A stretch of DNA of 29,299 nucleotides, from positions 1 to 29,299 of the IMG/VR virus record IMGVR_UViG_3300008448_007227; one strand, written 5' to 3'. Both the position numbers and the translations under genes were made by a program. This document shows positions 1 to 27,514 of this stretch, piece by piece. This DNA is from a virus. The number at the start of each line of letters is the position of its first letter. Position 1 is the stretch's first letter. The notes under the pieces were generated by a model. The model was not told the origin of the DNA, made no database searches, and saw nothing but the letters and a program-made list of their open reading frames with translations.

Positions 1-1
1 C

Positions 2-403: not shown

Positions 404-407
404 TGTT

Positions 408-1028: not shown

Positions 1029-1030
1029 TT

Positions 1031-6464: not shown

Positions 6465-6467
6465 TTT

Positions 6468-7472: not shown

Positions 7473-7476
7473 GAAT

Positions 7477-11445: not shown

Positions 11446-12398
11446 CAAAGGTAGTTTACGTAACAGGTTGTTTTGGACTTATAGGAAGTCACATAACAAG
11501 AGCATGTTTAGAAAAAGGTTGGTACGTTAAAGGAGTTGACTCATTGACTTATGCAGCTAATGAAGATTTGATAGAAGAATTCTGTTTCTATGATAAGTTC
11601 TCTCTTGTAAAAGATGATATAAATAATCTTAAGTTTTTATATGAGTGCGACTATATTATTAATACTGCAGCAGAAACACATGTAGGTAATTCAATTGCCA
11701 ATTCAGATAAGTTTGTATCTTCTAATATTAACGGAGTTCATAACTTACTTGAGCTATTAAGAAACTATAGACAAGAAACAATTAAGGTTCCTATCTTACT
11801 CCATTTCTCAACAGATGAAGTGTATGGTGATATTGAAGATGGTACTCATAATGAAAAAGATCTTCTTAAACCTTCTAATCCATATTCAGCAACTAAAGCT
11901 GCAGCTGATCAATTAATATTGGCGTGGGGTAGAACATATAAAATACCGTATGTAATTGTAAGACCAACCAATAACTATGGAGTAGGTCAATATGTAGAGA
12001 AACTTATACCTAAAGCATGTAAGTATCTATCATTAAATAGAAAGATACCACTTCATAATGGAGGATCTCCAATACGTAACTGGCTTCATGCAGCAGATAC
12101 CGCTCAAGCTGTGATTACTATAGTTGAGTCTGGTGTACAAAATGAAATATTCAATATCGCAGGTGGTTATGAGCAAAGTAATTTATCCACTGTAGAGAAA
12201 GTTATACATAATTATACTGGATTAAGTACATTTGATATAAATGAATATATTGATACAGACTACTCAAGACCTGGTCAAGACGTAAGATATGCTTTAGATG
12301 ATAGTAAGTTAAGAAGTCTTGGTTGGGAACCAAAAAAACAATTTGACTCAGAAATAAAAGAAATTGTACAGTATTACAAATCAAAGTTTATATGGTAA
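11442..12398 (+). CDS. RmlB-like NDP-hexose 4,6-dehydratase
   Basis: Extended SDR predicted to turn an NDP-hexose, classically dTDP-glucose, into the 4-keto-6-deoxy intermediate. It has GxxGxxG at Gly9/12/15, the diagnostic 'STDEVYGD' with Thr124-Asp125-Glu126, and YxxxK at Tyr148/Lys152 ('YSATK'). 'NNYGVGQYVEKLIPKA' and 'PIRNWLHAAD' are close to the RmlB forms. At 318 aa it is slightly shorter than typical RmlB (about 340-360). It lacks the TGHTGFKG motif of CDP-glucose dehydratase RfbG. It would feed both the RfbH-like enzyme at 1031 and the aminotransferase branch. Whether its base is dTDP, CDP or UDP is open. Confidence 0.85.
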   Translation: MTKVVYVTGCFGLIGSHITRACLEKGWYVKGVDSLTYAANEDLIEEFCFYDKFSLVKDDINNLKFLYECDYIINTAAETHVGNSIANSDKFVSSNINGVHNLLELLRNYRQETIKVPILLHFSTDEVYGDIEDGTHNEKDLLKPSNPYSATKAAADQLILAWGRTYKIPYVIVRPTNNYGVGQYVEKLIPKACKYLSLNRKIPLHNGGSPIRNWLHAADTAQAVITIVESGVQNEIFNIAGGYEQSNLSTVEKVIHNYTGLSTFDINEYIDTDYSRPGQDVRYALDDSKLRSLGWEPKKQFDSEIKEIVQYYKSKFIW

Positions 12399-14173: not shown

Positions 14174-15018
14174 TTAAAGCTGGAATTATAGGAACAGGCA
14201 ATATTGGTACTGACTTACTATTGAAAATACTGAAGACAAACTATATTAAACCTGTAATATTTGCAGGCCGTAGAATGGATTCAGATGGTATCAGAATAGC
14301 GCAATCAAAAGGTATAGAAGTTACAGATAAAGGTATTCAATACTTTATTGATAATCCTAATTGTTGTGATGTAGTATATGATTGCACAAGTGCAGCAGAC
14401 GCTAAAGAACATGCTAAGGTATTTTCTGAACAGGGGATTAAAGTGATAGACTTGACTCCTGCTAAAGTTGGACCTTTGTGTGTACCTAGTATTAATTCTA
14501 GAGTTATATTAGATTCTGGTAATGTCAATATGATTACATGTGGCGGTCAAGCATCAATGCCTATGCTTAATCTTATATCTAAGTATTGTGATAAGTTAGA
14601 CTATATAGAAGTTGTATCTCAAATTGCATCTAAGAGCGCAGGTATGGCAACAAGGATTAATATCGATTCTTATATTCATACCACAGAAATGGCCATAAAA
14701 CAATTCACTAAATGTGATAATTGTAAAGTGATATTGAATTTAAATCCTGCTGAACCATGCGTTGATATGCAAACTACTATGTTCTTGAAGTTTCAAAATA
14801 TTGATTTTGAAGATCTAGTTGAAGAGATCTATAAGAAGATTAAGGAACTAAAGACATATATACCACATTATGAATTGGTATTGCCACCAGTTATTAATGA
14901 TGATATACTTGTGTTGAGTATCAAAGTGAAAGGATCTGGTGATTATTTACCAGAGTATGCAGGTAACTTAGACATTATTAATTGTGCTGCAATTGAAGTA
15001 ACTAAAAATTTATTGTAA
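14170..15018 (+). CDS. Acylating acetaldehyde dehydrogenase (MhpF/DmpF-like)
   Basis: Predicted to interconvert acetaldehyde plus CoA and acetyl-CoA with NAD(H). 'IIGTGNIGTDLL' (7-18) is the dinucleotide motif. The catalytic thiolate is Cys124 in 'MITCGGQAS', and 'QIASKSAGMATRINID' and 'ILNLNPAEP' are family-specific segments. It is 282 aa against about 310 for MhpF/DmpF, with shortening spread through the protein rather than a lost domain. It directly precedes its usual partner aldolase (TAATG coupling), and in degradative operons the two form a channelling complex. Here the company is sugar-biosynthetic, so a biosynthetic direction is likely. Confidence 0.88.
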   Translation: MIKAGIIGTGNIGTDLLLKILKTNYIKPVIFAGRRMDSDGIRIAQSKGIEVTDKGIQYFIDNPNCCDVVYDCTSAADAKEHAKVFSEQGIKVIDLTPAKVGPLCVPSINSRVILDSGNVNMITCGGQASMPMLNLISKYCDKLDYIEVVSQIASKSAGMATRINIDSYIHTTEMAIKQFTKCDNCKVILNLNPAEPCVDMQTTMFLKFQNIDFEDLVEEIYKKIKELKTYIPHYELVLPPVINDDILVLSIKVKGSGDYLPEYAGNLDIINCAAIEVTKNLL

Positions 15019-16016
15019 TGAGTAAGATCATAATAACAGATTCATCTTTAAGAGATGGTAACCACGCAGTCAAACATACAATTAATCTTGAACAAATAAA
15101 AAGATATTGTGAATTTGCAGATAGGGCAAGAATTCCTATTGTAGAAGTAGGGCATGGTAACGGTTTAGGAGCGTCGTCTTTATTGATTGGACAATCTCCA
15201 TATACAGATAAAGAAATATTAATTACTGCAAGAGAGAGTCTTAAAAGATCTAGACTCGGTATTCATATTATTCCTGGAATTGCTACAGTCAAAAAAGATA
15301 TAGAACAAGCAATTGATTTAGGTGTAGATGTATTTAGAATTGCAACACACTGTACTGAAGCCACTTTATCTAAGTCTCATATAGAATATTTAAAGAGTAG
15401 AGATAAAACAGTATTTGGTGTATTAATGATGAGTGCATTGGCTGATACTAAAACATTAGTAGAGAATGCTAAGACTATGGAAGAGTATGGAGCAGAGGCA
15501 ATAATCATTATGGATTCTACAGGTACATACTTACCAAAAGATGTATATGAAAGAATTGACTCATTAAAGAATAGTTTAAATATTGAAGTTGGTTTTCATG
15601 CTCACGATAATTTAGGATTGGCCACAGCAAATTCATTAACTGCTGCAAATTATGGAGCAACTTATATTGATGCATGTATTAGAGGTTTTGGAGCAGGGGC
15701 AGGCAATGCACATTTAGAAATGATCATCCCTGTATTAGAGAAGAGTGGATATGAAGTAGACATAGACTTTCAAAAAGTTATCATAGAAGCAGATAAAGTC
15801 ATGGACTATCTAGTACCTTCAGCACCGATATCTACTCCAGTTAATATCTTAACAGGATTGAATAGACTATTCTCAGGATTTGAGAAGCCTATTATCAAAG
15901 CATCTAAATTATTTGGCATAGAATATTCATCATTAATATTTGAACTTGGAAATAGAAAGTTAGTTGCTGGTCAAGAAGATCTTATATTAGAGGTAGCACA
16001 AAAGCTGAAGAAATGA
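15018..16016 (+). CDS. 4-hydroxy-2-oxovalerate aldolase-like enzyme (MhpE/DmpG, HMGL family)
   Basis: A (beta/alpha)8 aldolase of 332 aa. The N-terminal 'DSSLRDGNHAVKH' gives Arg12, Asp13 and His16, matching the catalytic residues of DmpG. 'VEVGHGNGLG' follows, the metal ligands His194 and His196 are in 'GFHAHDNLGLA', and 'GFGAGAGNAHLE' is also conserved. The C-terminal region resembles the DmpG communication domain that binds the dehydrogenase. Known homologs split 4-hydroxy-2-oxopentanoate to pyruvate and acetaldehyde, reversibly. Together with the gene before it, it could make that 2-oxo acid from acetyl-CoA and pyruvate. Its use by the ThDP enzyme upstream is my inference. Confidence 0.88.
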   Translation: MSKIIITDSSLRDGNHAVKHTINLEQIKRYCEFADRARIPIVEVGHGNGLGASSLLIGQSPYTDKEILITARESLKRSRLGIHIIPGIATVKKDIEQAIDLGVDVFRIATHCTEATLSKSHIEYLKSRDKTVFGVLMMSALADTKTLVENAKTMEEYGAEAIIIMDSTGTYLPKDVYERIDSLKNSLNIEVGFHAHDNLGLATANSLTAANYGATYIDACIRGFGAGAGNAHLEMIIPVLEKSGYEVDIDFQKVIIEADKVMDYLVPSAPISTPVNILTGLNRLFSGFEKPIIKASKLFGIEYSSLIFELGNRKLVAGQEDLILEVAQKLKK

Positions 16017-16780
16017 AGATACTAATTACAGGTGCAAATGGTTATATAGGAAGTTCTTTATATAATGCACTTAAAGATAAGTATGAAGTAACTGCTATTA
16101 GTAGAGATGATTTTAATCTAGTAGATATTGAAAGAATGATTAAGTTCTTTAATGGTAAGTATTTCGATGTAGTACTCCATTGTGCTATAGCAGGAGGAAG
16201 CAGATTAAAAGAAGATAGTTGGGAAACAATGGATATTAATTTAGCAATGTACTATAATTTATTGCAGTGCAAAGTACATTATGCAAAGTTAATCCAGTTT
16301 GGTTCAGGAGCAGAGTATGCACAAGACGATAAGCCATATGGATTTAGTAAGAGAGTTATATCTAAGTCTATAGAGAATAGAGACGGATTCTATAATCTAA
16401 GAATATATGCAGTGTTTGATGAGTTAGAGTTAGATACCAGGTTTATTAAGTCTAATCTAAAAAGATATATAAATAAAGAAGACATGCAGATACACCAAAA
16501 CAAATACATGGACTTCTTTTATATGCAAGACCTAATTAAGTTAGTAGACTATTACATACTGCATGATGGTCTACCTAAACAAGTTGATTGTACGTACGAA
16601 GACATTAAGAGTCTAAAAGAAATATGTGAGTTTATAAATACTCTTGACGATCATAAAGTGGGTATACAATACCAAGAACAAGGACTAGTAAAAGGATATG
16701 TGGGATTCAATAAAACTTTACAGTTAGACTACATAGGACTTAAACAAGGAATAATTAACACATACAATAAATTGAAATGA
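16013..16780 (+). CDS. Short NDP-sugar SDR reductase/epimerase (RmlD-like)
   Basis: A 255-aa extended-SDR-type protein. The cofactor motif is 'ITGANGYIGSS' (5-15), the active site 'QFGSGAEYAQDDKPYGFSK' has Tyr109/Lys113, and 'KYMDFFYMQDLIKLVDYY' resembles the RDF-x-Y/H-V-x-D segment. It is shorter than GalE or RmlB proteins (310 aa or more), with a reduced substrate domain, as in RmlD-like 4-keto reductases. It follows the ThDP/dehydrogenase/aldolase trio, so reduction of a keto group, perhaps on a newly attached side chain as YerD does in yersiniose synthesis, is attractive but unproven. It has ATGA junctions on both sides. Confidence 0.78.
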   Translation: MKILITGANGYIGSSLYNALKDKYEVTAISRDDFNLVDIERMIKFFNGKYFDVVLHCAIAGGSRLKEDSWETMDINLAMYYNLLQCKVHYAKLIQFGSGAEYAQDDKPYGFSKRVISKSIENRDGFYNLRIYAVFDELELDTRFIKSNLKRYINKEDMQIHQNKYMDFFYMQDLIKLVDYYILHDGLPKQVDCTYEDIKSLKEICEFINTLDDHKVGIQYQEQGLVKGYVGFNKTLQLDYIGLKQGIINTYNKLK

Positions 16781-18060
16781 AACAAATAAGCTTTATAACT
16801 AATACAGGACCTAACACATTAGAGTATACTAAACTGTTGTTAGAGTCTTTAAAAAATAATTTAGTTGGTAAAGAACATGAGATCATAGTCTTCGTAGATA
16901 AAGATACAGATGATACGTATGAATATCTTAAGAGTATTAAGAATGACTTCTATGATCTTAAAATAGTTACACACAAATTACAAGGACCCGTAGGCTATCA
17001 AAGAAACTCCAACTTACTTGTTGATATAGCTAAGCATGATATTGTAAGTTATCTCCAATCAGATATGGTTATAGGTCCTGATTATGATGTCAACATTCTA
17101 TCTCAACTAGAAGACAATTGTATATTATCTGCTACAAGAGTAGAACCACCATTACATGGATATTCAGACTACACTATAACGTACGATTTTGGAACAGATC
17201 CTACAGTATTTGATATGGATAAGTGGAATAACTATTCTAAGATAGTAAAAACAAGTCAAGCAGCAGAATACTTCTTTGCTCCTATAACATTCTATAAGAA
17301 GGTGTGGCAAAGTATCGGTGGTTATGATACCATATTTAGAAGATCAAGAGAGGATTCTGATTTTGTTCAAAGGTGTGTTCATGCAGGAATAAAAATGATA
17401 CAAACTTGGCAAGCTAATGTTTATCACTTTACTTGTATAAGTTCCAGAGGAAAGAATTGGTTTGATGAGAACAACCAAGAAGCAAAAGACAGGGTTGAGT
17501 TACAGAAGATAGCTGATGGAATAGAGATCAGAAGGTTCCTAAAGAAATGGGCTGGATTTAATCATGGTGAACAGAAGCTAAAAAAGATAGATATAGATCT
17601 TATAATAAAAGATGAGAAGCAATTAAACCCTCTGTTTATAGCACAGTTAGAAGTATATTCATCTAGAGTATGGTTAAAATCTCAAGAGTATGTAAACGTG
17701 ATGATGCAGACATTCAGCAACGAACAGGATCCAGCTAATGAACTTTTAGGATATACAAAAGAAGGGTGGGAGGAAGCCAAGCATCTATTTAGAACTACAG
17801 ATTTTCATAGTATCTATAATGTAGGTGAACCAATAGACTTCAATGTAAAGATAGAGGTTGACTTTACAAATGTAGATCCTAGCCAAGATCAATTCTTACA
17901 AAATGTAACTCGCTTGGGTGACATTCTGGATGGTGCAGAACCAGGAATATATGAATTAGGATGTGCAAAAATAGAGGTCAGAAACATTGTGGATTTAACC
18001 ATGGATCAAATAATTGTACAGAATCCATCATTTGATATGTCATTATTAACCATAGAGTAA
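16777..18060 (+). CDS. GT2 glycosyltransferase with unrecognised ~180-residue C-terminal domain
   Basis: The first ~230 residues are a GT2-type catalytic domain: 'ISFITNTGPNTLEYTKLLLESL' opening, 'SYLQSDMVIGPDYD' with the nucleotide-binding acidic site near Asp96, and 'RRSREDSDFVQRC' (about 190) with the catalytic-base ED. Residues about 250-427 form an extra region rich in acidic and amide residues with no motif I know. It is not membrane-spanning and could bind an acceptor or be a small beta-domain. As the last gene of the sugar operon, separated by 21 bases from the next gene, it may carry out the final attachment. The extension sets it apart from the six shorter transferases. Confidence 0.8.
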   Translation: MKQISFITNTGPNTLEYTKLLLESLKNNLVGKEHEIIVFVDKDTDDTYEYLKSIKNDFYDLKIVTHKLQGPVGYQRNSNLLVDIAKHDIVSYLQSDMVIGPDYDVNILSQLEDNCILSATRVEPPLHGYSDYTITYDFGTDPTVFDMDKWNNYSKIVKTSQAAEYFFAPITFYKKVWQSIGGYDTIFRRSREDSDFVQRCVHAGIKMIQTWQANVYHFTCISSRGKNWFDENNQEAKDRVELQKIADGIEIRRFLKKWAGFNHGEQKLKKIDIDLIIKDEKQLNPLFIAQLEVYSSRVWLKSQEYVNVMMQTFSNEQDPANELLGYTKEGWEEAKHLFRTTDFHSIYNVGEPIDFNVKIEVDFTNVDPSQDQFLQNVTRLGDILDGAEPGIYELGCAKIEVRNIVDLTMDQIIVQNPSFDMSLLTIE

Positions 18061-18774: not shown

Positions 18775-19165
18775 GCAAATACAGTTAGGAGTAGATTCGA
18801 TAATAGGTACTAAGACTATCATAAGGAGAAAGAAGAAGTCTACAGCAGACAAGAAGAGAGAACTGTTCTTCAACTTAATAAATGGTATTGATGAACTAAA
18901 TGTTAGACAGAATATCATGTATGGAGATCTTAGTTTAGACTTTGCAGACTACGATGAGAAGTTCTTTACTGTTATTGATATGCTGATATACATGCACTTT
19001 GGTAAACAGTGCACAGAACTCATAGGCTTTTATTTATATGAAAGAGTAAACGTAGATGGTACGATTAATCCGGTTATAGTGAATGATAATGAGGAAGTCA
19101 TATTAGAAACTCCATACGATCTATGGAATTTAATATGTAAAGTAAACCCGAAGATAGATGAGTAA
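18758..19165 (+). CDS. Unrecognised phage protein
   Basis: A 135-aa protein I do not recognise. Residues about 20-35 are very basic ('TIIRRKKKSTADKKREL'); the rest is a mostly helical acidic domain ending 'ETPYDLWNLICKVNPKIDE'. The ATG at 18758 lies within the previous gene, and the next gene starts 8 bases before its stop, so the three genes form a coupled run ending in the HNH-like gene. A scaffold or adaptor role in virion assembly or packaging would fit such a run but nothing in the sequence proves it. Confidence 0.72.
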   Translation: MEKDFKQIQLGVDSIIGTKTIIRRKKKSTADKKRELFFNLINGIDELNVRQNIMYGDLSLDFADYDEKFFTVIDMLIYMHFGKQCTELIGFYLYERVNVDGTINPVIVNDNEEVILETPYDLWNLICKVNPKIDE

Positions 19166-19913
19166 GCAATATAACTTTACTAAAGAGAAGATGGCCAGAG
19201 ATAAAAGGCCAGAAACTTGGTGGCATAGAGGACTTCAATTAACAGAAGCACAGTTAAGAGAAGCCATGGCAAATACACGTAGTAATAAAGAAGCCGCAAG
19301 ATGGCTTGGCATTACAGACATAACATACAAGAAGTATGCAAAGAATACTTTTGATGAAGCAACAGGAAAAAGCCTGTTCGAACTTCATTTGAACCAGTCA
19401 GGAAAAGGTATGCCAAAAAACTGGGCTGGTGGTAAATGGAAAAAGAATCTAGATGAAATGCTAATCGAGAATCAACCTATCAATTCTAAAAAGATATTAA
19501 GGTTGAAAGAACTACTCATGACAGATGGTAGACTTGGATTTAAGTGTTCTGCTTGTGGTTATTGTGAGAAGAGATTAACTGATATGAAAGCTCCTTTGTT
19601 ACTTAACTTTAAGAACGGTAAGAAGAGTGACTGGAGAATAGAGAACTTACAATGGCTTTGTTACAATTGTTATTTCCTTTTTATAGGCAATCCTTTCACT
19701 AACAAGATGTTAGAGAAGATAGAGACAATGCCATTTGAAACACCAGAGATAAAAGAAGAAGTACAAGAGCTTTATCAACTCGATGAATTCTATTATGATC
19801 ATCTAAAGAAGCTAGGTTTAGATGGACAAGGAGATCTATTATTCAAAGAAGAGGATCTCATAGACTACAAAGATCCAGACGATGGATCAGAATTCATTGA
19901 TATTCGTAAGTAA
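19158..19913 (+). CDS. Helix-turn-helix plus degenerate HNH zinc-finger protein
   Basis: A 251-aa probable DNA-binding protein. Residues about 29-62 ('LTEAQLREAMANTRSNKEAARWLGI' region) read as a helix-turn-helix of the kind that senses repeated DNA sites. Residues about 128-175 have the layout of an HNH nuclease: CxxC (130, 133), a central strand, 'RIENLQWLC', and a second CxxC (168, 171). However, the catalytic His positions read 'LLLNFKNG' and 'CYNCYF', so both histidines seem lost while the zinc-binding cysteines remain. A structural, non-cleaving role is therefore likely. It is the last gene before the first regulatory cassette. Confidence 0.75.
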   Translation: MSKQYNFTKEKMARDKRPETWWHRGLQLTEAQLREAMANTRSNKEAARWLGITDITYKKYAKNTFDEATGKSLFELHLNQSGKGMPKNWAGGKWKKNLDEMLIENQPINSKKILRLKELLMTDGRLGFKCSACGYCEKRLTDMKAPLLLNFKNGKKSDWRIENLQWLCYNCYFLFIGNPFTNKMLEKIETMPFETPEIKEEVQELYQLDEFYYDHLKKLGLDGQGDLLFKEEDLIDYKDPDDGSEFIDIRK

Positions 19914-19939
19914 CTTATTGGTTTTCAATCACTTATGCA

Positions 19940-19964
19940 TAACTAATTGATAATCAATCAGTTA
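19940..19964. repeat. Palindrome I, cassette 1
   Basis: Inverted repeat of 12-base arms (TAACTAATTGAT and ATCAATCAGTTA) around one central A, with a single mismatch at arm position 6. It begins 26 bases after the preceding stop. The identical 25 bases recur at 21724 and 25618. Dyad symmetry and exact copies suggest a protein-binding site. It could fold as a weak AT-rich hairpin, but the copy at 21724 directly follows a good terminator, so a terminator role is not needed there. Confidence 0.9.
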
Positions 19965-20001
19965 GGGATTTTAATTATTTTTTAGCGTTTTACAAAGATC
20001 T

Positions 20002-20016
20002 TTGAAGAATATTCAA
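20002..20016. promoter_or_regulatory. Palindrome II, cassette 1 (operator candidate)
   Basis: TTGAAGA-A-TATTCAA, an imperfect copy (one mismatch) of the perfect 7+1+7 palindrome at 25683. Its first base is exactly 94 bases upstream of the promoter's TA, as in the other two cassettes. The fixed distance suggests an activator or repressor site tied to the promoter. An A/T tract (20029-20061) lies between it and the promoter and is also conserved. Confidence 0.65.
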
Positions 20017-20079
20017 TGAATCCTAGACTTTACTAAATGAAACAAAAAGTTTAAAAAAAGTTTAGAAAAAAGTGCACCG

Positions 20080-20104
20080 GTTAAAAAATATGTCTTAATT
20101 TTAC
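20080..20104 (+). promoter_or_regulatory. Promoter of block 1 (cassette 1)
   Basis: GTTAAAAAA begins 16 bases upstream of TAATTTTAC, which fits the Bacteroidota -7 form TAnnTTTG with A for G. A GTGC at 20072-20075 lies 20 bases before the TA in all three cassettes. Transcription would start close to 20106-20112, giving a very short leader before the ATG at 20122. The following 25 bases, including the ATG and two further codons, are identical in cassette 2. Confidence 0.65.
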
Positions 20105-20121
20105 TATGTAACAAATCAATA

Positions 20122-20535
20122 ATGAATATGAGCATCATCATCAACACCCTCAGTATCAGTACTTCAAATTTTATTCAAGGTCGTAAAGGAACGTACAGGG
20201 CGATAGTAAAATGTCCTGCTGGCTTTTATACTGTTTCGACTCTTAGAACTGACTATGAAGGATTTAAGCCTTCCGATATCCTTACCTTCTTTAAGGCAGG
20301 CGGACTTGCTACTATTGAGTTCAAGGCTGACGAATCTACGTATGATACTTGGCTTACTGTATTTGCAATGAAAGGTAAGAAGTGTGTTACTATTGATCAA
20401 GACATTATGAAGGACTTGACTGTGGGTATCATCAATCAATATTGGGTAGATACCAACCTCTACTCTCAAATGCAATATGCTATAGTGAATGCTAAGACAT
20501 GGGTTGATAAGGCATTCATACAGAACGCAGCCTAA
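20122..20535 (+). CDS. Unrecognised phage protein, first gene of block 1
   Basis: A 137-aa protein of unknown function. The sequence looks beta-rich in the first half ('IINTLSISTSNFIQGRKGTY', 'AIVKCPAGFYTV') followed by an alpha/beta part. It contains two cysteines and no metal or nucleotide motif. As the first gene behind a strong-looking promoter it should be made in quantity. Its G+C content is visibly higher than that of the sugar operon. The ATG at 20122 is chosen because the same leader-plus-ATG occurs at 21908; an ATG six bases on (20128) is the alternative. Confidence 0.8.
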   Translation: MNMSIIINTLSISTSNFIQGRKGTYRAIVKCPAGFYTVSTLRTDYEGFKPSDILTFFKAGGLATIEFKADESTYDTWLTVFAMKGKKCVTIDQDIMKDLTVGIINQYWVDTNLYSQMQYAIVNAKTWVDKAFIQNAA

Positions 20536-20561
20536 TTATCTAACCAATCAAAATAAAAGTT

Positions 20562-20756
20562 ATGTCATACACAAAAAGAGAACTAGAAAATTTAGAGACA
20601 ATAGAACAAGCGTGGGATGGTGATGAACTCAAGATCGAAGAAGAAGGATACAAAGTATGGCTCACTCACAGAGACAACAGAGCTTACAATGGAGACTACA
20701 CTATTGAGACTTTGGTAGACGGTAGATGGGAACAAGAAAATTGTATATTTGAATAA
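20562..20756 (+). CDS. Unrecognised small acidic protein
   Basis: A 64-aa acidic protein with three Trp and little else to go on. The leader 'AAAATAAAAGTT' directly before ATG is the repeated start signal of these blocks and supports a real gene. It sits 26 bases after the first gene of the block and 14 before the next, so all are probably co-transcribed. I cannot assign a function. Confidence 0.75.
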   Translation: MSYTKRELENLETIEQAWDGDELKIEEEGYKVWLTHRDNRAYNGDYTIETLVDGRWEQENCIFE

Positions 20757-20770
20757 ATAAAAAATAAGTT

Positions 20771-21022
20771 ATGAAAGCTTATCAAGTATTTAGAGGAGAT
20801 CACGACAAACACGGTCGTCAACGTTTCGACTTAGTAGCTACATACTTAGACAGACAACGTGCAATAGATCATGCGGAGAAAATAGCTCAGGAAACTCCAT
20901 TGCATGGTGACGTTTTAGAATTTGACGGATGGTGGGCAGAAGGAAAATACTGCAGTTGGAGTGCTGTAGGGTGGGAGAGAATGACCTTAGCTCAATTTGA
21001 AGAGATCGAAATTACAGAATAA
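20771..21022 (+). CDS. Unrecognised small protein
   Basis: An 83-aa protein with a regular alpha/beta look: 'AYQVFRGDHDKHGRQRFDLVATYLDRQRAIDHAEKIAQET' reads as strand, charged loop, strand, helix, followed by a Trp-rich part ('FDGWWAEGKYCSWSAVGW'). The strand-helix layout resembles small phage and plasmid proteins that often follow early promoters, but I recognise no family. The start has the AAAAATAAGTT leader before ATG. Confidence 0.75.
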   Translation: MKAYQVFRGDHDKHGRQRFDLVATYLDRQRAIDHAEKIAQETPLHGDVLEFDGWWAEGKYCSWSAVGWERMTLAQFEEIEITE

Positions 21023-21032
21023 AAAATAAGTT

Positions 21033-21230
21033 ATGAATAAGAAAGAATTAGAAAGGATCATTAGTCTAAGTCAAAAACAGTACATGAAAGAAAATCCAAA
21101 CTATGAACTCATGTTCCCAGAGGGATGGGATGATGATAGTAAGTGGCCAAGATTCGAGTATGACTACGACTCCTTTAGAAAGACCCAGATTGAGATCGAT
21201 GACTACATGGAGCGTATGGCCGGTTGTTGA
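21033..21230 (+). CDS. Unrecognised small acidic protein, last gene of block 1
   Basis: A 65-aa acidic protein, mostly charged, with 'PEGWDDDSKWPRFEYDYDSF' in the centre and no known motif. The leader AAAAAATAAGTT precedes the ATG, as for its neighbours. Its stop lies only seven bases before the tRNA-like element, so the RNA element would be part of the same transcript and would need processing from it. Confidence 0.75.
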   Translation: MNKKELERIISLSQKQYMKENPNYELMFPEGWDDDSKWPRFEYDYDSFRKTQIEIDDYMERMAGC

Positions 21231-21237
21231 TCAAAAT

Positions 21238-21314
21238 AGTCAGGTGAGCGTAATGCGGGACGGTCCCAAATCTCTTAATGAGTTGCTTATCCGGTTCGAG
21301 TCCGGCCCTGACTA
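21238..21314 (+). tRNA. tRNA-like element (intact acceptor and T arm, degenerate D arm)
   Basis: Seventy-seven bases with tRNA geometry. The acceptor stem AGTCAGG/CCTGACT pairs 7 of 7 with discriminator A. The T arm is CCGG-TTCGAGT-CCGG, with one mismatched pair at its base, and the variable loop is 5 bases (GCTTA). The anticodon arm, placed by standard numbering, pairs 4 of 5 (AATC-type arm with an A-G mismatch) around the loop TCTTAAT, giving a nominal UUA anticodon but C instead of U at position 33. No canonical D stem forms; instead GGGA-CGG-TCCC can make a small hairpin. CCA is not encoded. This could be a decayed tRNA, a divergent phage tRNA or a processing signal; decoding ability is doubtful. 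Confidence 0.5.
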
Positions 21315-21365
21315 CAAAAAACAAAATAAAAAAAAGTGTTCCACTATAAAAATCAATATATATAG

Positions 21366-21390
21366 GTTCACAAAAAAGTCTTACATTTAT
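21366..21390 (+). promoter_or_regulatory. Promoter of the single-gene HTH unit
   Basis: GTTCACAAAAAA begins 16 bases before TACATTTAT, the same spacing and elements as in the three cassette promoters (GTT-A-rich, then TAnnTTTA). Unlike those, it has no GTGC 20 bases upstream of the TA, and neither palindrome is present. It would transcribe only the HTH gene, which has its own terminator. Confidence 0.55.
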
Positions 21391-21423
21391 CATATATTAA
21401 AAACAAAACAAAAACAAGCAGTT

Positions 21424-21669
21424 ATGCAAACAACAAACCGCCCAAGTAGCTACACTAAGCTTAGCTACATCCAGAAAGTTAGCCGTGTTAACCGTAAGCT
21501 CCGCACTGGAGACATTACTAAAGTTGCAGAAAACACTGGCTTTAGTCCTAACTACACCTCCGAGGTTCTCTCAGGTAAGTACTTCAACGATCGTATCGTT
21601 AATGAAGCTTATGACATGACAAGGGGTCGTATCGCGAACCCAGTTAAGTTGTCCAGTTTGGAAGCTTAA
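21424..21669 (+). CDS. Small helix-turn-helix protein (possible phage regulator)
   Basis: An 81-aa basic protein, read from ATG 21424 behind the GTT leader rather than from the far upstream ATG at 21103, which would run through the tRNA-like element. Residues about 29-60 ('DITKVAENTGFSPNYTSEVL' and the following 'GKYFNDRIVNEAY') fit an XRE/lambda-repressor-like helix-turn-helix: helix, Ala-x-x-x-Gly turn, recognition helix. It has a private promoter and a strong terminator, so its supply is independent of the flanking blocks. The repeated palindromes nearby are obvious candidate targets, but that is inference. A nucleoid-type DNA-binding protein is the alternative. Confidence 0.8.
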   Translation: MQTTNRPSSYTKLSYIQKVSRVNRKLRTGDITKVAENTGFSPNYTSEVLSGKYFNDRIVNEAYDMTRGRIANPVKLSSLEA

Positions 21670-21691
21670 TCTATCGCTTATTGATTGTTAC

Positions 21692-21722
21692 GGCCTGGGA
21701 TTCTCTATCCTGGGCCTTTTTT
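21692..21722 (+). terminator. Rho-independent terminator after the HTH gene
   Basis: A 10-bp stem, GGCCTGGGAT against ATCCTGGGCC with two G-U pairs, a 5-base loop (TCTCT), then six T residues. It is the only GC-rich hairpin with a T-run in the window. It ends one base before palindrome I of cassette 2, so it insulates block 2 from the HTH unit. Confidence 0.9.
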
Positions 21723-21723
21723 A

Positions 21724-21748
21724 TAACTAATTGATAATCAATCAGTTA
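21724..21748. repeat. Palindrome I, cassette 2
   Basis: Exact copy of the 25-base palindrome at 19940. It starts immediately after the T-run of the terminator. Here a terminator function would be redundant, which favours a binding-site role. Confidence 0.9.
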
Positions 21749-21787
21749 TGATTTTACTAAATAATCTTTAATCCGGTCCAAGATATA

Positions 21788-21802
21788 TTGAAGAATCTTC
21801 AG
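21788..21802. promoter_or_regulatory. Palindrome II, cassette 2 (operator candidate)
   Basis: TTGAAGA-A-TCTTCAG: arms of the perfect palindrome at 25683 with one end mismatch. It starts 94 bases upstream of the promoter TA and 64 bases after the start of palindrome I. ATTTTACTAAAT occurs twice in this copy (21751 and 21813), flanking palindrome II. Confidence 0.65.
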
Positions 21803-21865
21803 AGTTTTGTATATTTTACTAAATGAAACAAAAAGTTTAAAAAAAGTCTGCAGAAATGTGCTCCA

Positions 21866-21890
21866 GTTCAAAAATGTGTTGTATATTTAC
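21866..21890 (+). promoter_or_regulatory. Promoter of block 2 (cassette 2)
   Basis: GTTCAAAAA starts 16 bases before TATATTTAC; GTGC at 21858-21861 lies 20 bases before the TA. The leader that follows (21892-21916) is base-for-base the same as in cassette 1, through the ATG and into the coding sequence. It drives the block from 21908 onward. Confidence 0.7.
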
Positions 21891-21907
21891 AATGTAACAA
21901 ATCAATA

Positions 21908-22285
21908 ATGAATATGGACATCAAGATCACGGTTATCAACCACTTTACCAGGAAAACAATCATCGACAGTGTAGCTACTGTCCCTAATGATTGGTCAGTT
22001 GTAGAAGCCAACCACAAGGCTTTCTCTGAAATGCATCCCGATTGTTATGTCAATTTCGTATGTGAAGAGACTAGGTCTTACATTTGCTCTCAGCCGTACA
22101 ATGAGTTACAGGATGAGCGTGCTTACGACGAGGGTCGTATGACATGGGAACAGTATTGTGACAAGTGGTACAAAGGTGCCCTGTCCGGTTGTAATGAGGA
22201 CGACATGCCTGACTATGAGATCGAGCGTCAGATTGATGAGATCCGTGAGGCTGAGTGGAACGCTATGGACTCTATTTGTTATTAA
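21908..22285 (+). CDS. Unrecognised protein, paralogue of the gene at 27173
   Basis: A 125-aa acidic protein of unknown function, first gene of block 2. It aligns by eye with the protein at 27173: 'FTRKTIIDSV' with 'FTKKKVTKII', 'HKAFSEMHPDCYVNF' with 'HSKNNPNCSVVV', 'PYNELQDERAYDEGRMTWEQYCDKWYKGALS' with 'PYNMTLDQVRVEDEDYPTMTMDQF' followed by 'TKKWYGKIS'. The shared part is an N-terminal beta-strand pair, a PYN turn and a KWY helix; the C-terminal acidic tail ('EIERQIDEIREAEW') differs. Codons are unusually GC-rich for the window (29 G+C in the 60 bases from 22141). Confidence 0.82.
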   Translation: MNMDIKITVINHFTRKTIIDSVATVPNDWSVVEANHKAFSEMHPDCYVNFVCEETRSYICSQPYNELQDERAYDEGRMTWEQYCDKWYKGALSGCNEDDMPDYEIERQIDEIREAEWNAMDSICY

Positions 22286-22304
22286 TTAATTCAAAATAAA
22301 GGTT

Positions 22305-22793
22305 ATGAATAAAATAGTAATAGATCTCACAGACGTATCAATTTCAGAAATGGTAAAGTCCCAAGGAGACTTTAATCGATCTGATAAAGAGAACAACGAT
22401 TGTACAGTACTAGCCATGTCTGCGTCATTTGGAATTTCGTATGACAAAGCAAATGAGTATTTCAAAAAGAACCTTGATCGTGTAGAAGGTAAAGGAGTCA
22501 GGTTGACAAAACTCAGATCTCATTTTGACACAGTAGAACAGGTTAGGATAGGCGACGTTACAAAGTCTGTACGTCCTGTAGATACTAAGAACGCTTATGT
22601 CTATAAGAGGACAGGCAAAGTCAACTACTGCAGAATGAACCTGAATTCATTCATAAAGAAATATCCTAAAGGATCATACTACATGGTCGCAGGTTCACAT
22701 GCCTTCGTCATCAAAGACGGAAAGGTTATCGACCACGACTATATGAAAAGTAAAATGAATCGAGTAGTTAAAAACGCATGGCAAATAAAATAA
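22305..22793 (+). CDS. Papain-like (C39-type) cysteine-peptidase-fold protein
   Basis: A 162-aa protein with the order of residues expected for a small papain-fold peptidase. An N-terminal 'NNDCTVLAMSASFGISYDKA' (Cys33 at the start of a helix) is followed by a central variable part, then 'GSYYMVAGSHAFVIKDGKVIDHD' (His132 on a strand, Asp144 possible third residue). The same Cys-helix and H-A-x-V-x-DG-x-x-x-D pattern occurs in peptidase C39-like proteins and in many phage proteins annotated as hypothetical. Activity is not proven. It may cleave a host or phage protein soon after infection, or act as a deamidase or amidase. The start has the AAAATAAAGGTT leader. Confidence 0.68.
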   Translation: MNKIVIDLTDVSISEMVKSQGDFNRSDKENNDCTVLAMSASFGISYDKANEYFKKNLDRVEGKGVRLTKLRSHFDTVEQVRIGDVTKSVRPVDTKNAYVYKRTGKVNYCRMNLNSFIKKYPKGSYYMVAGSHAFVIKDGKVIDHDYMKSKMNRVVKNAWQIK

Positions 22794-22798
22794 AAGTT

Positions 22799-23185
22799 AT
22801 GACAAAATTAGAATTTATGCAAATGGCAAATGAGCAGGCAAAAGCAATGGCAACTGAAATGGTAGGCGATGGACAGAGTCCTAACAAGTTCTTTGTGACT
22901 TCCTCACCTTACTACATGGTAGTAGACGAATTTGGAGATAGAGAGTCTGAGTTACTTGACGGATACGATATTAAACATGGAGAGACTAGAGTATTTGATA
23001 GTCTTGAAGAGGCAGAGGAATATTATGATCAGGTTGATCTTGATATCTATGAAGGTATAGGATCAGTCATGATAGAAGATCGTAAGTCTGGTACTATAAG
23101 AGAAAAGTGCTTGGAAAAAATAGTAAAGGTAGACTATATAGTGAGTGAGTATGATGACACAAAACTTTTTGGATATAAAAAATAA
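22799..23185 (+). CDS. Unrecognised acidic protein
   Basis: A 128-aa protein. I use ATG 22799, directly behind the AAAATAAAAGTT start leader; an ATG 21 bases upstream (22778) would overlap the peptidase-like gene. It begins with a Met-rich amphipathic helix ('EFMQMANEQAKAMATEMVGD'), then alternating acidic strands and helices ('TRVFDSLEEAEEYYDQVDLDIYEG'). The 'V-F-D-S-L-E-E-A-E-x-Y' segment is a common strand-helix unit in small phage proteins, but I cannot name a family. Confidence 0.75.
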   Translation: MTKLEFMQMANEQAKAMATEMVGDGQSPNKFFVTSSPYYMVVDEFGDRESELLDGYDIKHGETRVFDSLEEAEEYYDQVDLDIYEGIGSVMIEDRKSGTIREKCLEKIVKVDYIVSEYDDTKLFGYKK

Positions 23186-23188
23186 GTT

Positions 23189-23419
23189 ATGAAAGCAAAA
23201 ACAGCAGTAGAATGGTTGTACAAAGAACTTTACGAAACACCTCGTACATTATGGGAAGATCAATTGATAGAGATATTTAAACAAGCCATGGAAATGGAAG
23301 AGGATCAAATCAAAGAAGCGTTTCAACTTGGTGAATTAAATGAGAATTCCTTTCAACATGTTGGTAAAAGAATCCACAAAGACAAACAGGAATACTATAA
23401 CAAATCTTATAAAAAATAA
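23189..23419 (+). CDS. Small conserved-type phage protein of unknown function
   Basis: A 76-aa helical protein: 'AVEWLYKELYETPRTLWEDQ' then 'IFKQAMEMEEDQIKEAFQLG' and a Lys/Tyr-rich end 'KQEYYNKSYKK'. This order (AVEWL, F-x-Q-A-x-E-M-E, D/E-Q-I, then Y-Y-N) is one I have seen in many Bacteroidota phage proteins of unknown function, which supports the host guess. Start leader AAAAAATAAGTT. Four bases separate its stop from the next start codon. Confidence 0.8.
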   Translation: MKAKTAVEWLYKELYETPRTLWEDQLIEIFKQAMEMEEDQIKEAFQLGELNENSFQHVGKRIHKDKQEYYNKSYKK

Positions 23420-23423
23420 ATGT

Positions 23424-23648
23424 ATGGACAACAACATCAAAATAAAAAGTAGCTACATTCCAGAAGAGACTATGGACGTTAACGAATGGTGTGAAATGTT
23501 TAAAGTAGGTAGTAGAGTAGAAAAATATAGAGGAGAAGATCGTAGTGGCTTTCTCAACTCTCAATATGACTTTGTAAAACTATTTGAATCCACTGAGAGG
23601 TTAAGTTTCTTGGGTAAAATAAAAAATCTTATATTAGTAGATCTATGA
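23424..23648 (+). CDS. Unrecognised small protein
   Basis: A 74-aa protein read from ATG 23424. An open frame also extends upstream to 23340, but that part lies inside the preceding gene and looks like its shadow. No motif is visible; the composition is mixed, with a charged centre ('KVGSRVEKYRGEDRSGF') and a hydrophobic end ('KIKNLILVDL'). Its stop overlaps the next start as ATGA, so it is likely co-translated with the SWIM protein. Confidence 0.65.
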   Translation: MDNNIKIKSSYIPEETMDVNEWCEMFKVGSRVEKYRGEDRSGFLNSQYDFVKLFESTERLSFLGKIKNLILVDL

Positions 23649-23968
23649 TAATTGTTCACACGTTTCAGGTACCGTTTTTCTGGACTGATGAAGTCGGTCC
23701 TTATGTAATTGAAGACGGAGTTAGGAGAGATCTTCCAAGTGGTACTACTAGGAAGGATCTTATATGGTTCAGACGCCCATATCCAGGAGGTAAGAATGAG
23801 GCATTCAAAACAGAGATGGAATGGGAAGTCCCAGGATCTGGTACTAAGAAATACAGTGTGGCTTTATATGGAGACTCTTGGTCCTGTAATTGTCATGCCT
23901 ATAAATTCTCTGGAAACAAAAGAAGCTGTAAGCACGTAGAGGAGATCAAGTCTTCATATTTATCATAG
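23645..23968 (+). CDS. Small SWIM-type zinc-finger protein
   Basis: A 107-aa protein whose C-terminal third matches the SWIM pattern CxC-x(n)-CxH: Cys81-x-Cys83, eleven residues, Cys95-x-His97 ('WSCNCHAYKFSGNKRSCKHV'). SWIM fingers bind DNA or proteins in MuDR transposases, SWI2/SNF2 helicases and Sws1-type recombination factors. Here the finger stands almost alone after a beta-rich N-terminal part, so it could be a minimal adaptor for recombination or transcription. No helicase or transposase domain is attached. Confidence 0.78.
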   Translation: MIIVHTFQVPFFWTDEVGPYVIEDGVRRDLPSGTTRKDLIWFRRPYPGGKNEAFKTEMEWEVPGSGTKKYSVALYGDSWSCNCHAYKFSGNKRSCKHVEEIKSSYLS

Positions 23969-23994
23969 GATCCCTTAATCTAAAAAGGCTTACT

Positions 23995-24588
23995 ATGAAC
24001 AAGAAGACTAAAGACTTTATCAAATATGTCAAGAGTGAATGTAAGAAGTACGGAGTTAAGTGTGACCTACGAAATACAAAGTACGTCAAACTCTCAGGAA
24101 ATATAAAGTGCTCAGGATATTTTGATGAAGAGGTTCCGGCTTTAGTATGTTCAATGAATAGGCCAGATGCAATAGAGATCCTTGCCCACGAGTTCTGTCA
24201 CCTTACACAATGGGTAGATCAGATTGATCTTTGGAAAGGTTGCAATGTTTCTATGCCACTCGTTGATGAGTGGTTAAGTGGAGCAGAGGTTCCTAATATA
24301 AAGAAGCACTTAGGAGTTTCTAGAGATCTTGAATTAGACAATGAGAAGAGGGCAGTGAAGTTAATCAAGAAGTTTAATCTGGACATAGATGTGGACCATT
24401 ACATTAGAAAGGCTAATGCGTATGTATTTTTCTATAACAGACTATTGGCCACTAGGAAGTGGGCCACTCCACAAAATAGTCCATACACAAACCAAAGGAT
24501 AATAGAGAAAATGCCCAGATACTTTAGGGCAGACTATTCAGTCACTCCAAAAAGAATTGAAAAGGTATTTATCCAAGAAAATCTATAG
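23995..24588 (+). CDS. Zincin-like HExxH protein (putative metallopeptidase) 1
   Basis: A 197-aa putative metallopeptidase. The HExxH motif is 'ILAHEFCHLTQW' (His65-Glu66-His69). A third ligand is plausible at Glu113 or Glu117 in 'SRDLELDNEKRAVKLIKKF', the ELDxE spacing seen in IrrE/ImmA-like and related zincins. The C-terminal part ('PYTNQRIIEKMPRYFRADY') is basic and unfamiliar. No signal peptide, so it acts inside the cell or in the virion. It is followed two bases later by a second, shorter HExxH protein. Confidence 0.72.
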   Translation: MNKKTKDFIKYVKSECKKYGVKCDLRNTKYVKLSGNIKCSGYFDEEVPALVCSMNRPDAIEILAHEFCHLTQWVDQIDLWKGCNVSMPLVDEWLSGAEVPNIKKHLGVSRDLELDNEKRAVKLIKKFNLDIDVDHYIRKANAYVFFYNRLLATRKWATPQNSPYTNQRIIEKMPRYFRADYSVTPKRIEKVFIQENL

Positions 24589-24590
24589 TC

Positions 24591-24980
24591 ATGACAGATC
24601 AAATAAAGCCTACGAGAAAACATGTGAATAAGATATTTGAATGGTGTGTTAATCAATACGGCAAATCTAAGTTCAATAAGACTCTTCCTGTAGTTGAGTT
24701 CAAGAAGCCAGATTATTATACAGAAGGATGTATGGCATTCTATGATGAGATAGAGTCAGTCATATACATCAATAAGGAGCAAAATGATAACCTACCAGAG
24801 TTGGTAAATAGTATTATTCATGAGTATGTGCACTATAAACAAAACATGAAGCATTATCAGATACTTAGTTTATATTTACCTGATAATAAGAATCCTATGG
24901 AAATAGAAGCCATTAAGATTGCCAAAAGAGATACAAAAAAATGCCTTAAAGAGGTATTTGATATATCAATTTTAAAGTAA
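24591..24980 (+). CDS. Zincin-like HExxH protein (putative metallopeptidase) 2
   Basis: A 129-aa putative metallopeptidase. HExxH lies in 'SIIHEYVHYKQNM' (His77-Glu78-His81), and a Glu about 25 residues later in 'NPMEIEAIKIAKRD' (Glu104/Glu106) is a suitable third zinc ligand. The small size and H-E-Y-x-H-x-x-Q form resemble minimal SprT/minigluzincin-type domains. It directly follows another HExxH protein, to which overall similarity is low, so the pair is not a simple tandem copy. Confidence 0.72.
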   Translation: MTDQIKPTRKHVNKIFEWCVNQYGKSKFNKTLPVVEFKKPDYYTEGCMAFYDEIESVIYINKEQNDNLPELVNSIIHEYVHYKQNMKHYQILSLYLPDNKNPMEIEAIKIAKRDTKKCLKEVFDISILK

Positions 24981-25016
24981 GATTAATATTTATTGTTATA
25001 TTAAAAAACTAATATA

Positions 25017-25307
25017 ATGATCCTATTGGACGTGGTGGAAACAAATGGCATCAGAGAATATTTTTTACAATACGGTGTTTTAGGACTACTGGCTTTTATT
25101 CTAGGGTATTTTGCATGGATGCAGTATCAAAGACTTGTGAAAAAGAATGATGAATTAGAAATTAAAGTAGATAAGCTGCAAGAAGAGATGATGCAATTAT
25201 TAGTACAAGAAAGAGATAGACTTGCTGAATTGATCAAAGAGAATTCAGAAGCGCTTAGAGAATTACAGAAAACTATATTGAAATACATGGTTAAAAATAA
25301 TGAGTGA
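25017..25307 (+). CDS. Single-membrane-helix plus coiled-coil protein, BhlA/holin-like candidate
   Basis: A 96-aa protein with one hydrophobic helix (about residues 18-36, 'YGVLGLLAFILGYFAWMQY') followed by a charged helix that should form a coiled coil (about 40-90). The layout of a short lumen-side N-terminus, one helix and a long cytoplasmic K/E-rich helix is that of BhlA/UviB-type holin-like proteins. That would give a role in lysis or membrane disruption, but holin calls from layout alone are unreliable, and other small membrane anchors look the same. No endolysin is visible nearby. Its TGA overlaps the next ATG by one base. Confidence 0.6.
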   Translation: MILLDVVETNGIREYFLQYGVLGLLAFILGYFAWMQYQRLVKKNDELEIKVDKLQEEMMQLLVQERDRLAELIKENSEALRELQKTILKYMVKNNE

Positions 25308-25612
25308 TGGATTACAAAAGACTTTCTTTAAGCAAAATGGGAGATAAGCTTATTAAAACATTAGAAGCTAAAGAACATTTTGATCGTCGAGAACAAGAAA
25401 AGTCGTATATAAAAAAAGTATTAATTCTCAAAGAGATATTAACCACAGAATTTAAGTTCGTTACACAAAATAAGGTAGCGCATCCAGCATATGCCACACG
25501 CGCACAGGTCCTCGAGAAGCACATCAATTACGTTAAGAAGATACAGAACAACAAGGTATTTGAGACTTCAGATAAGCAAATAATTGATCAACTTCTAGCT
25601 AAATATAGCTAA
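25307..25612 (+). CDS. Unrecognised basic helical protein
   Basis: A 101-aa, lysine-rich, mostly helical protein ('LIKTLEAKEHFDRREQEKSYIKKVL', 'VLEKHINYVKKIQNN'). I begin it at ATG 25307, which shares its first base with the preceding TGA; a GTG three bases upstream is possible. It may interact with the membrane coiled-coil protein with which it is translationally coupled. No catalytic motif. It closes block 2, and palindrome I of cassette 3 starts six bases after its stop. Confidence 0.72.
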   Translation: MDYKRLSLSKMGDKLIKTLEAKEHFDRREQEKSYIKKVLILKEILTTEFKFVTQNKVAHPAYATRAQVLEKHINYVKKIQNNKVFETSDKQIIDQLLAKYS

Positions 25613-25617
25613 TTTCA

Positions 25618-25642
25618 TAACTAATTGATAATCAATCAGTTA
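25618..25642. repeat. Palindrome I, cassette 3
   Basis: Third exact 25-base copy of the palindrome at 19940 and 21724. It lies between the end of block 2 and palindrome II of cassette 3. No GC-rich terminator precedes it here, so it could contribute to ending block 2 transcription, but no T-run follows. Confidence 0.9.
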
Positions 25643-25682
25643 GGAATCCCACTAAATAATTTTCAATCCAGGATAAGAATCT

Positions 25683-25697
25683 TTGAAGAATCTTCAA
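25683..25697. promoter_or_regulatory. Palindrome II, cassette 3 (perfect operator candidate)
   Basis: TTGAAGA-A-TCTTCAA, a perfect 7+1+7 palindrome and so the best guide to the consensus. It starts 94 bases before the promoter TA, as in the other two copies. It is followed by the A/T tract at 25710-25741 (ACTAAA, AAACAAAAAGTTTAAAAAAAG). Confidence 0.7.
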
Positions 25698-25760
25698 TGA
25701 ATCCTAGGTTTTACTAAACAAAACAAAAAGTTTAAAAAAAGATTGAAAAAAAGTGCTTTG

Positions 25761-25785
25761 GTTCAAAAATAGTTAGTATATTTAC
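25761..25785 (+). promoter_or_regulatory. Promoter of block 3 (cassette 3)
   Basis: GTTCAAAAA begins 16 bases before TATATTTAC; GTGC at 25753-25756 is again 20 bases before the TA. Unlike cassettes 1 and 2 the leader downstream ends in AAATAAAGGTT-ATG, i.e. the general start leader has replaced the cassette-specific one. Confidence 0.7.
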
Positions 25786-25808
25786 AATGTATCAAACAAA
25801 TAAAGGTT

Positions 25809-26678
25809 ATGAATAATCAAATTGTCCTCTCTGCACTTACCACACAACTGACATCTAAACAAGCAGAACTTAGCAATTACGAGCAAACAGTACATGAGCC
25901 TGAAGTAGCTCGTATAAATGATCAGATCTTACAGTGGTTCAAAGATAATGTCTGTGAGCACGTCAAAGGCGTCAAGGCTGTAGAAAATCAAGTTTCAATA
26001 CAAAGTCACGCAAGTACATATAGCCGCACTCATTTGACAATAGAGCGCAGATGGAAAGACACCGAAGACTATATGAGATTCAATACTTACTCTACTGATT
26101 TTAAGACTGGCGAAGACAACGATAGGCTTGACACGATTGTCAATGGTAAAATAGGTGAGCACTTCTACGCTATTCAACATGTGTTTAGTAATGTATGGAA
26201 CCCACTTTTCCAGAAAGCATCAGAGCCTCTAAACAATATGTACTCTGAGGTAGAACAATTGGATCGTAGTATCCGCATACTTAAGTCAGAGATGGAAAGT
26301 CAAGCTAAAGATCAATACAAGAAAGTCGGTTTTGCTTGTCAACTCAACCCTGAGAAATACATCAAAAATCAGTGGAGTAATGAAGGAGCTCCTGAATTGA
26401 TAGATCAAAATCATACCATAAGATTGCAAACAGGTAGAAGCAACTATGACTACATGTATGTAAACTCTTTCAAGATCAAAGCGATAAACAAGTACAAGTG
26501 TACTTTGGAAGTCTCTAATGGAGATAATATAAAAGACTACGAGGTTACTGTGACCGCCATGAAATTCAATAGCTTCATCGACCAAGTATTCGAATGGCAG
26601 AATGGTAAGTCAGAGAAAGCAGCGGCTAGTATGACAGAAAGGTTCAATAGGCTTTATGCTAAATATGAGAATGCTTAA
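25809..26678 (+). CDS. Unrecognised coiled-coil protein, first gene of block 3
   Basis: A 289-aa protein, the largest in the small-gene blocks. The N-terminal 30 residues form a probable coiled coil ('ALTTQLTSKQAELSNYEQTV') and another lies around 145-170 ('MYSEVEQLDRSIRILKSEME'). Between and after them are Trp- and Tyr-rich stretches of no known fold ('FYAIQHVFSNVWNPLF'). No catalytic or metal motif. As the first gene behind a cassette promoter it should be abundant. Start chosen for its AAATAAAGGTT leader. Confidence 0.82.
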   Translation: MNNQIVLSALTTQLTSKQAELSNYEQTVHEPEVARINDQILQWFKDNVCEHVKGVKAVENQVSIQSHASTYSRTHLTIERRWKDTEDYMRFNTYSTDFKTGEDNDRLDTIVNGKIGEHFYAIQHVFSNVWNPLFQKASEPLNNMYSEVEQLDRSIRILKSEMESQAKDQYKKVGFACQLNPEKYIKNQWSNEGAPELIDQNHTIRLQTGRSNYDYMYVNSFKIKAINKYKCTLEVSNGDNIKDYEVTVTAMKFNSFIDQVFEWQNGKSEKAAASMTERFNRLYAKYENA

Positions 26679-27172: not shown

Positions 27173-27514
27173 ATGATAACGTGTAAATTGACATTGACAG
27201 ATTGGTTCACTAAAAAGAAGGTGACTAAGATAATTATGCCAAAAGATCCTGTAGTGGCTGCAAAGATCCACTCTAAAAACAATCCTAATTGTAGTGTAGT
27301 GGTCGAGTATCATGATCCAAGATCAAAGAGGATTGTAGAACTTCCTTACAATATGACCTTAGATCAGGTTCGTGTAGAGGATGAAGACTATCCTACAATG
27401 ACCATGGATCAATTCACCAAAAAGTGGTATGGCAAAATTAGTAAAGCCAAGATAAAAGAAATAGAACAAGAAGTCGAATCAGAATATGAAACAGAAAATC
27501 ATGAAGACATTTAA
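27173..27514 (+). CDS. Unrecognised protein, paralogue of the gene at 21908
   Basis: A 113-aa protein sharing the whole plan of the protein at 21908: an F-T-K/R-K strand, H...P-x-C-x-V, R...PYN, then MT/MD-x-x-x-x-K-W-Y. The acidic C-terminal tail ('IEQEVESEYETENHEDI') replaces the longer tail of its paralogue. The two sit in different cassette-driven blocks, pointing to duplication along with, or after, the cassettes. Function unknown. The next gene overlaps its end by 14 bases. Confidence 0.82.
   Translation: MITCKLTLTDWFTKKKVTKIIMPKDPVVAAKIHSKNNPNCSVVVEYHDPRSKRIVELPYNMTLDQVRVEDEDYPTMTMDQFTKKWYGKISKAKIKEIEQEVESEYETENHEDI

Follow-up and report, generated by a model that had tools for sequence, protein, structure and literature searches.

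Repeated promoter cassettes with operator-like palindromes as probable landing sites for accessory genes in Immutovirus-related phages

The stretch analysed in this study (the window) was a virus contig of 29,299 bases that carried a glycan-synthesis island followed by small genes. About 17 kb of genes at 1-18060 of this phage contig resembled sugar-nucleotide and glycosyltransferase enzymes, and the last of them (16777-18060), the only gene there whose family match was checked, was Glycos_transf_2. Three conserved genes on the plus strand preceded the repeated cassettes: an HNH endonuclease-like gene at site 1 (19158-19913; phrog_10822, E 2.6e-8; found in 20 IMG/VR relatives), a gene for a small HTH protein of 81 aa at site 2 (21424-21669), and a small ORF at site 3 (25304-25612). 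The genes directly behind cassettes 1, 2, and 3, on the same strand, were 20122-20535, 21908-22285 (with a paralogue at 27173-27514), and 25809-26678, respectively. No match to known protein families was found for most module genes.

Palindrome I, a 25-mer (TAACTAATTGATAATCAATCAGTTA), was present at 19940-19964, 21724-21748, and 25618-25642 on the plus strand and was identical in all three copies, while 0 copies at up to 3 mismatches were expected by chance (100 shuffles). Palindrome II started 62, 64, and 65 nt from palindrome I in cassettes 1, 2, and 3, at 20002-20016 (TTGAAGAATATTCAA), 21788-21802 (TTGAAGAATCTTCAG), and 25683-25697 (TTGAAGAATCTTCAA), respectively. Counted from the start of palindrome II, GTGC (20072-20075, 21858-21861, and 25753-25756) lay at exactly 70 nt and the TA of TANNTTTAC at exactly 94 nt in 3/3 cassettes, with the -7 elements at 20096-20104 (TAATTTTAC), 21882-21890 (TATATTTAC), and 25777-25785 (also TATATTTAC). 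With the T of TA set to -12, a numbering taken from F. johnsoniae promoters (PMC6847099), the predicted starts were near 20108, 21894, and 25789, which is 14-20 nt 5' of each ATG. The original prediction had given these palindrome I copies, their distances to palindrome II, and the fixed spacing of GTGC and TA, and all of them held. Its description of the cassettes as near-identical was too strong: palindrome I is identical, but the full cassettes of 165-168 nt showed an identity of 77-79% (maximum in shuffled sequence, 60%). The three copies it listed were all real, but the inventory missed an extra tandem operator-like unit (TAACTTATTGGTTTTCAATCACTTA, 19911-19935, plus strand), in which the HNH stop codon, TAA, forms the first three bases; this unit abuts copy 1 and is conserved in two relatives (L006 and L011). 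Degenerate middle units also lay near -122 in cassette 2 (21760-21772) and cassette 3 (25655-25667). No known RNA family was found in the window.

The proposal of a Bacteroidota-type promoter held in part. The -7 element agreed with the Bacteroidota consensus at T-12, A-11, T-8, T-7, and T-6, but the G at -5 of the sigma-A consensus (TTTG / TAHHTTTG) was absent from the cassettes, which have A at this position (TTTAC). This G is near-invariant in Bacteroidota host promoters, for which the -12/-11/-8/-7/-6/-5 numbering comes from F. johnsoniae (PMC6847099).

IMG/VR was searched by exact sequence and by protein, and the further copies in related phages for which the original prediction had suggested a search were present in about 25 contigs. 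These contained 66 promoter-plus-palindrome matches, some of them weak or antisense and left out of cassette counts. The relatives were metagenomic contigs, except for Flavobacterium phage immuto and the crAss-like phages. Two cassette forms were distinguished, with positions counted from the T of TA. The window has type A, in which palindrome I, the degenerate middle unit, and palindrome II lie near -152, -122, and -91, respectively; type B, found in distant relatives, has three tandem 25-nt units (TAACTNATTGATNNTCAATNACTTA). In both forms, nearly every copy had the putative promoter TANNTTTAC at a fixed position. The core of the promoter-proximal unit in 34 type B cassettes started at -66 (23), -65 (8), -56 (2), or -57 (1); the shift of about 10 bp between -66/-65 and -56/-57 is one helical turn, in few cases. 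Since palindrome II is unlike the tandem units, type A and type B arrays may be only partly homologous. The arrays of a 162-kb contig (G006) were confined to 69-83.5 kb, and its other matches were at the 3-mismatch limit. No TTG-N5-CAA array was found in isolated phages, whose palindrome matches were all short and came mainly from crAss-like phages.

RNA-stem covariation was assessed in 83 distinct type B units against shuffled units, and no position pair was paired above the shuffled level. Positions 4/22 were paired in 13 of the 83 units (21.7 expected), with a common C-C mismatch. T8, T9, and G10, as well as C16, A17, and A18, were each kept in at least 81 of the 83 units, forming a near-invariant TTG-N5-CAA core. 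Because stem covariation is lacking and this core is nearly invariant, the palindrome units are probably DNA operators and not terminators, and the TTG/CAA pattern is that expected of a site bound by a dimer, not of an RNA stem under selection. It is quite improbable that palindrome I is instead an AT-rich terminator or an mRNA 3' stem-loop, which would make the cassette a promoter-terminator composite and a true promoter early stem-loop (PeSL). Palindrome I does lie 3-30 nt past stop codons at sites 1 and 3 and folds at about -8 to -9 kcal/mol, and in one Bacteroidota MAG the palindrome is often 3' of genes, sometimes with A and T tracts, with flanks that pair beyond chance. However, the phage units lack covariation, the C-C mismatch at 4/22 is common, the tandem units hold a constant distance to the promoter, and a T run directly after palindrome I is missing at cassettes 1 and 3. 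Moreover, a GC-rich intrinsic terminator (21692-21722, plus strand; -17.1 kcal/mol) lies directly 5' of cassette 2, and in many contigs the HTH-site array is immediately preceded by such a terminator; termination of the upstream transcript therefore does not require the palindromes. An RNA terminator was unsupported by covariation in the phage units. When up to 2 mismatches were allowed, the 23-mer palindrome occurred 1126 times in the MAG in question, Microscillaceae Prado074 (L119 and other JALONJ01 loci); most of these copies were intergenic, and their flanks paired, the pairing result being from a set of genomic copies of which most came from this MAG. Because the flanks there pair beyond chance, the terminator reading may hold in Prado074.

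The surroundings of the cassettes were also compared among the relatives. Cassettes recurred after the HNH gene, after the small HTH gene with its GC-rich terminator, and after the ORF at 25304, and a fourth site lay downstream of poorly defined genes. As far as automatic ORF calls allow counting, seven gene families stood directly behind the cassette at site 1, five at site 3, and five at site 2, with three further first genes at the latter. Several families were common to more than one site: family 20122 occurred at all three main sites, being also found 3' of sites 2 and 3 elsewhere, family 21908 at three (elsewhere usually at site 1), and families 20562 and 21033 at two. The gene at 25809-26678 was the commonest gene at site 3. 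Contigs G008 and G001 shared 98.3% identity along the 3.9 kb that lead to the cassette and 96.1% along the 2.3 kb that follow it. They differed by one family-20122 gene (15261-15668; 135 codons and a stop), which in G008 comes immediately after the cassette and whose left junction falls 23 nt downstream of where the -7 element starts.

Grouping the type A copies by upstream gene gave a strong similarity in the flank and palindrome I, which was weak in mid-cassette and gone at the promoter and leader; the flank segment takes in the last part of the upstream gene, and some of this association is therefore expected. The association with the downstream gene was weak, and the 5' part of type A cassettes tracked the site, neither the genome nor the downstream gene. 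Since type A similarity follows the upstream gene and site, the cassettes look fixed and the gene modules mobile, the modules appearing to move more than the cassettes. The cassette as a jumping unit was rejected, as type A flanks group by site and not by genome. The unit that spreads, as originally proposed, is therefore better described as gene modules exchanged at cassettes that mostly stay where they are. A crossover inside the cassette is not proven as the general route, given the weak downstream-gene association. The same weak association would suit conserved promoters that merely mark gene borders without aiding recombination, the swaps being ordinary illegitimate exchange; places that tolerate insertion must be intergenic, and promoters are there too. 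This explanation is unlikely, since identical gene families reappear behind different cassettes and the G008/G001 difference is a clean single gene with its junction at the cassette 3' end.

The small HTH protein is a candidate ligand of the array. It was highly conserved (seven relatives at 68-96% identity), and its gene lay directly 5' of an array at 11 IMG/VR loci, usually with the first unit 60-80 nt past the stop; at two of the loci (L230 and L236) the strict match picked up a later array unit only. Its putative promoter (TACATTTAT, 21382-21390, plus strand) has no palindrome upstream, and none was found within 320 nt upstream of this promoter in the relatives except for one match in L234. 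No known protein family and no homologue among phage records were found for the protein. Its predicted fold was helical with an HTH (pLDDT 71, modest confidence); a comparison with Cro-type chains gave a weak match (E 0.18), and Foldseek returned a best E of about 1 with weak matches mostly to XRE/Cro/SinR/Aca. Because operator-like arrays adjoin this conserved gene, one regulator for all cassettes, as first suggested, is plausible.

A host protein could also be the ligand, given that similar single palindromes occur in crAss-like phages and some Bacteroidota genomes. It is possible, though on balance doubtful, that the operators are bound by a host Bacteroidota regulator or nucleoid protein and not by the phage HTH protein. 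This would agree with TTGATNATCAA palindromes, which occur in crAss-like phages and in a small number of Bacteroidota genomes and in some cases lie near TANNTTTG-like promoters, and with distant HTH homologues (61% identity) in two large contigs that have no array. Against it, the 23-mer (up to 1 mismatch) was found in only 4 of 248 sampled Bacteroidota genomes, and the HTH gene, besides its position before the array at the 11 loci, is missing from immuto, which has no arrays. As a general Bacteroidota motif the palindrome was rejected on the same count (4/248 genomes, with Prado074 as the one outlier MAG); the 247 other sampled genomes held almost no 23-mer copies. Within or close to intergenic regions, Carjivirus communis (crAssphage, L254 1050-1100) and gut phage csAssE-Sib (L255 800-950) had one or more palindromes of the TTGATAATCAA type; those of csAssE-Sib looked like a degenerate tandem array upstream of TATATTTGCAC. 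In three rumen Bacteroidales contigs (L117, L131, and L132) the palindrome lay a few bases 5' of a TANNTTTGC-like promoter.

From sequence comparison, we consider it likely that a Bacteroidota-type phage promoter and, upstream of it, an array of dimeric DNA-binding sites make up each cassette, and that accessory genes use the cassette as a fixed landing site. The TTG-N5-CAA units would be bound by a regulator dimer. In the tandem form their centres are near -72, -97, and -122 from the predicted start, in every case 5' of the polymerase site, a placement suggestive of activation or silencing and not of simple occlusion. All cassettes would then respond together, and the long homology between the repeated cassettes would let recombination set new modules directly behind a working promoter. 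A more specific version is offered tentatively: the phage HTH regulator, made from an operator-free promoter, would control the landing sites, and up to three cooperative operators at a fixed distance would drive whatever gene recombination had placed behind them, giving a regulon defined by position and not by gene.

The PeSLs of T4-like phages are repeated promoter cassettes where modules shuffle (Arbiol 2010, Comeau 2014, as related in PMC4503421). The cassettes share with PeSLs a repeated regulatory element with a promoter, many intergenic copies, and exchange of modules there. The likeness in concept noted earlier stood, as the cassettes of relatives occupy fixed sites and are followed by differing genes, and the comparison supports a function close to PeSLs and gene shuffling of the same kind. 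Unlike PeSLs, the palindromes of the window gave no evidence of a stem-loop or terminator (covariation was absent, folding was weak, and cassettes 1 and 3 had no T run), the cassettes have a Bacteroidota -7 element and up to three tandem operator-like units, and the sites are stable while the modules change. A test of the stem-loop gave it no support, and the cassette was therefore not classed as a PeSL. In the Campylobacter group II phages, 1-3 kb repeat arrays move 28-55 kb modules, according to the part of PMC4546147 consulted; these are likewise extragenic repeats that bound exchangeable modules, but that part describes no promoter design for them.

The nearest isolate was Flavobacterium phage immuto (Immutovirus, NC_055915, 160 kb), in which glycan genes are followed by the HNH gene in the same order as in the window. 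The equivalent region after this gene (L092, NC_055915.1 60930-76190) also has a repeated promoter, with 24 near-identical units in 15 kb (0-1 in reversed sequence), about one per small gene. The unit reads AGTTGC-N-TATATTTAGGTATCAATAATTAAAA with the -7 element TATATTTAG. Unlike the window, immuto contained no TTG-N5-CAA palindromes or array, and hairpins are found in some of its own spacers: 8 of 25 -33/-7 spacers fold at -5 kcal/mol or lower. Some units have a hairpin and a T run in this spacer, such as GAGTTGCTAGCGCAGCTCTTTTTT, a promoter-terminator overlap. That immuto has another kind of repeated promoter in this region suggests that the strategy arose more than once.

At the oR and oL operators of phage lambda, three tandem dimer sites about 25 bp apart lie beside a promoter, and a small HTH gene is adjacent. 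The cassettes resemble these in the three tandem dimer-type sites of about 25 bp at a promoter and in the adjoining small HTH gene; they differ in that the array is upstream of the promoter and not over it, and in the several copies per genome. In contrast to lambda, no integrase or lysogeny signs were seen in the stretches examined. A literature search on the palindrome core found nothing relevant.

If the landing-site reading is true, cassette-mediated shuffling, known in T4-like phages, would extend to uncultured Immutovirus-related phages of Bacteroidota, with a design unlike that of PeSLs in that operators take the place of stem-loops. It would also provide a rule for accessory-gene discovery, namely to read the gene behind each cassette, and make testable how newly acquired phage genes gain regulation at once.

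Two minor observations were made between the cassettes. A tRNA-like stretch at 21238-21314 has a GTCAGG...CCCTGAC acceptor-like stem and a T-arm-like CCGGTTCGAGTCCGG; ARAGORN made no call there, the stretch was missing at the same place in one relative (L010), and its fold z-score was only -1.2. The adjacent small genes 23995-24588 and 24591-24980, to which no PHROG function was assigned, encode the HExxH motifs HEFCH and HEYVH, and their products are likely zinc metalloproteases.
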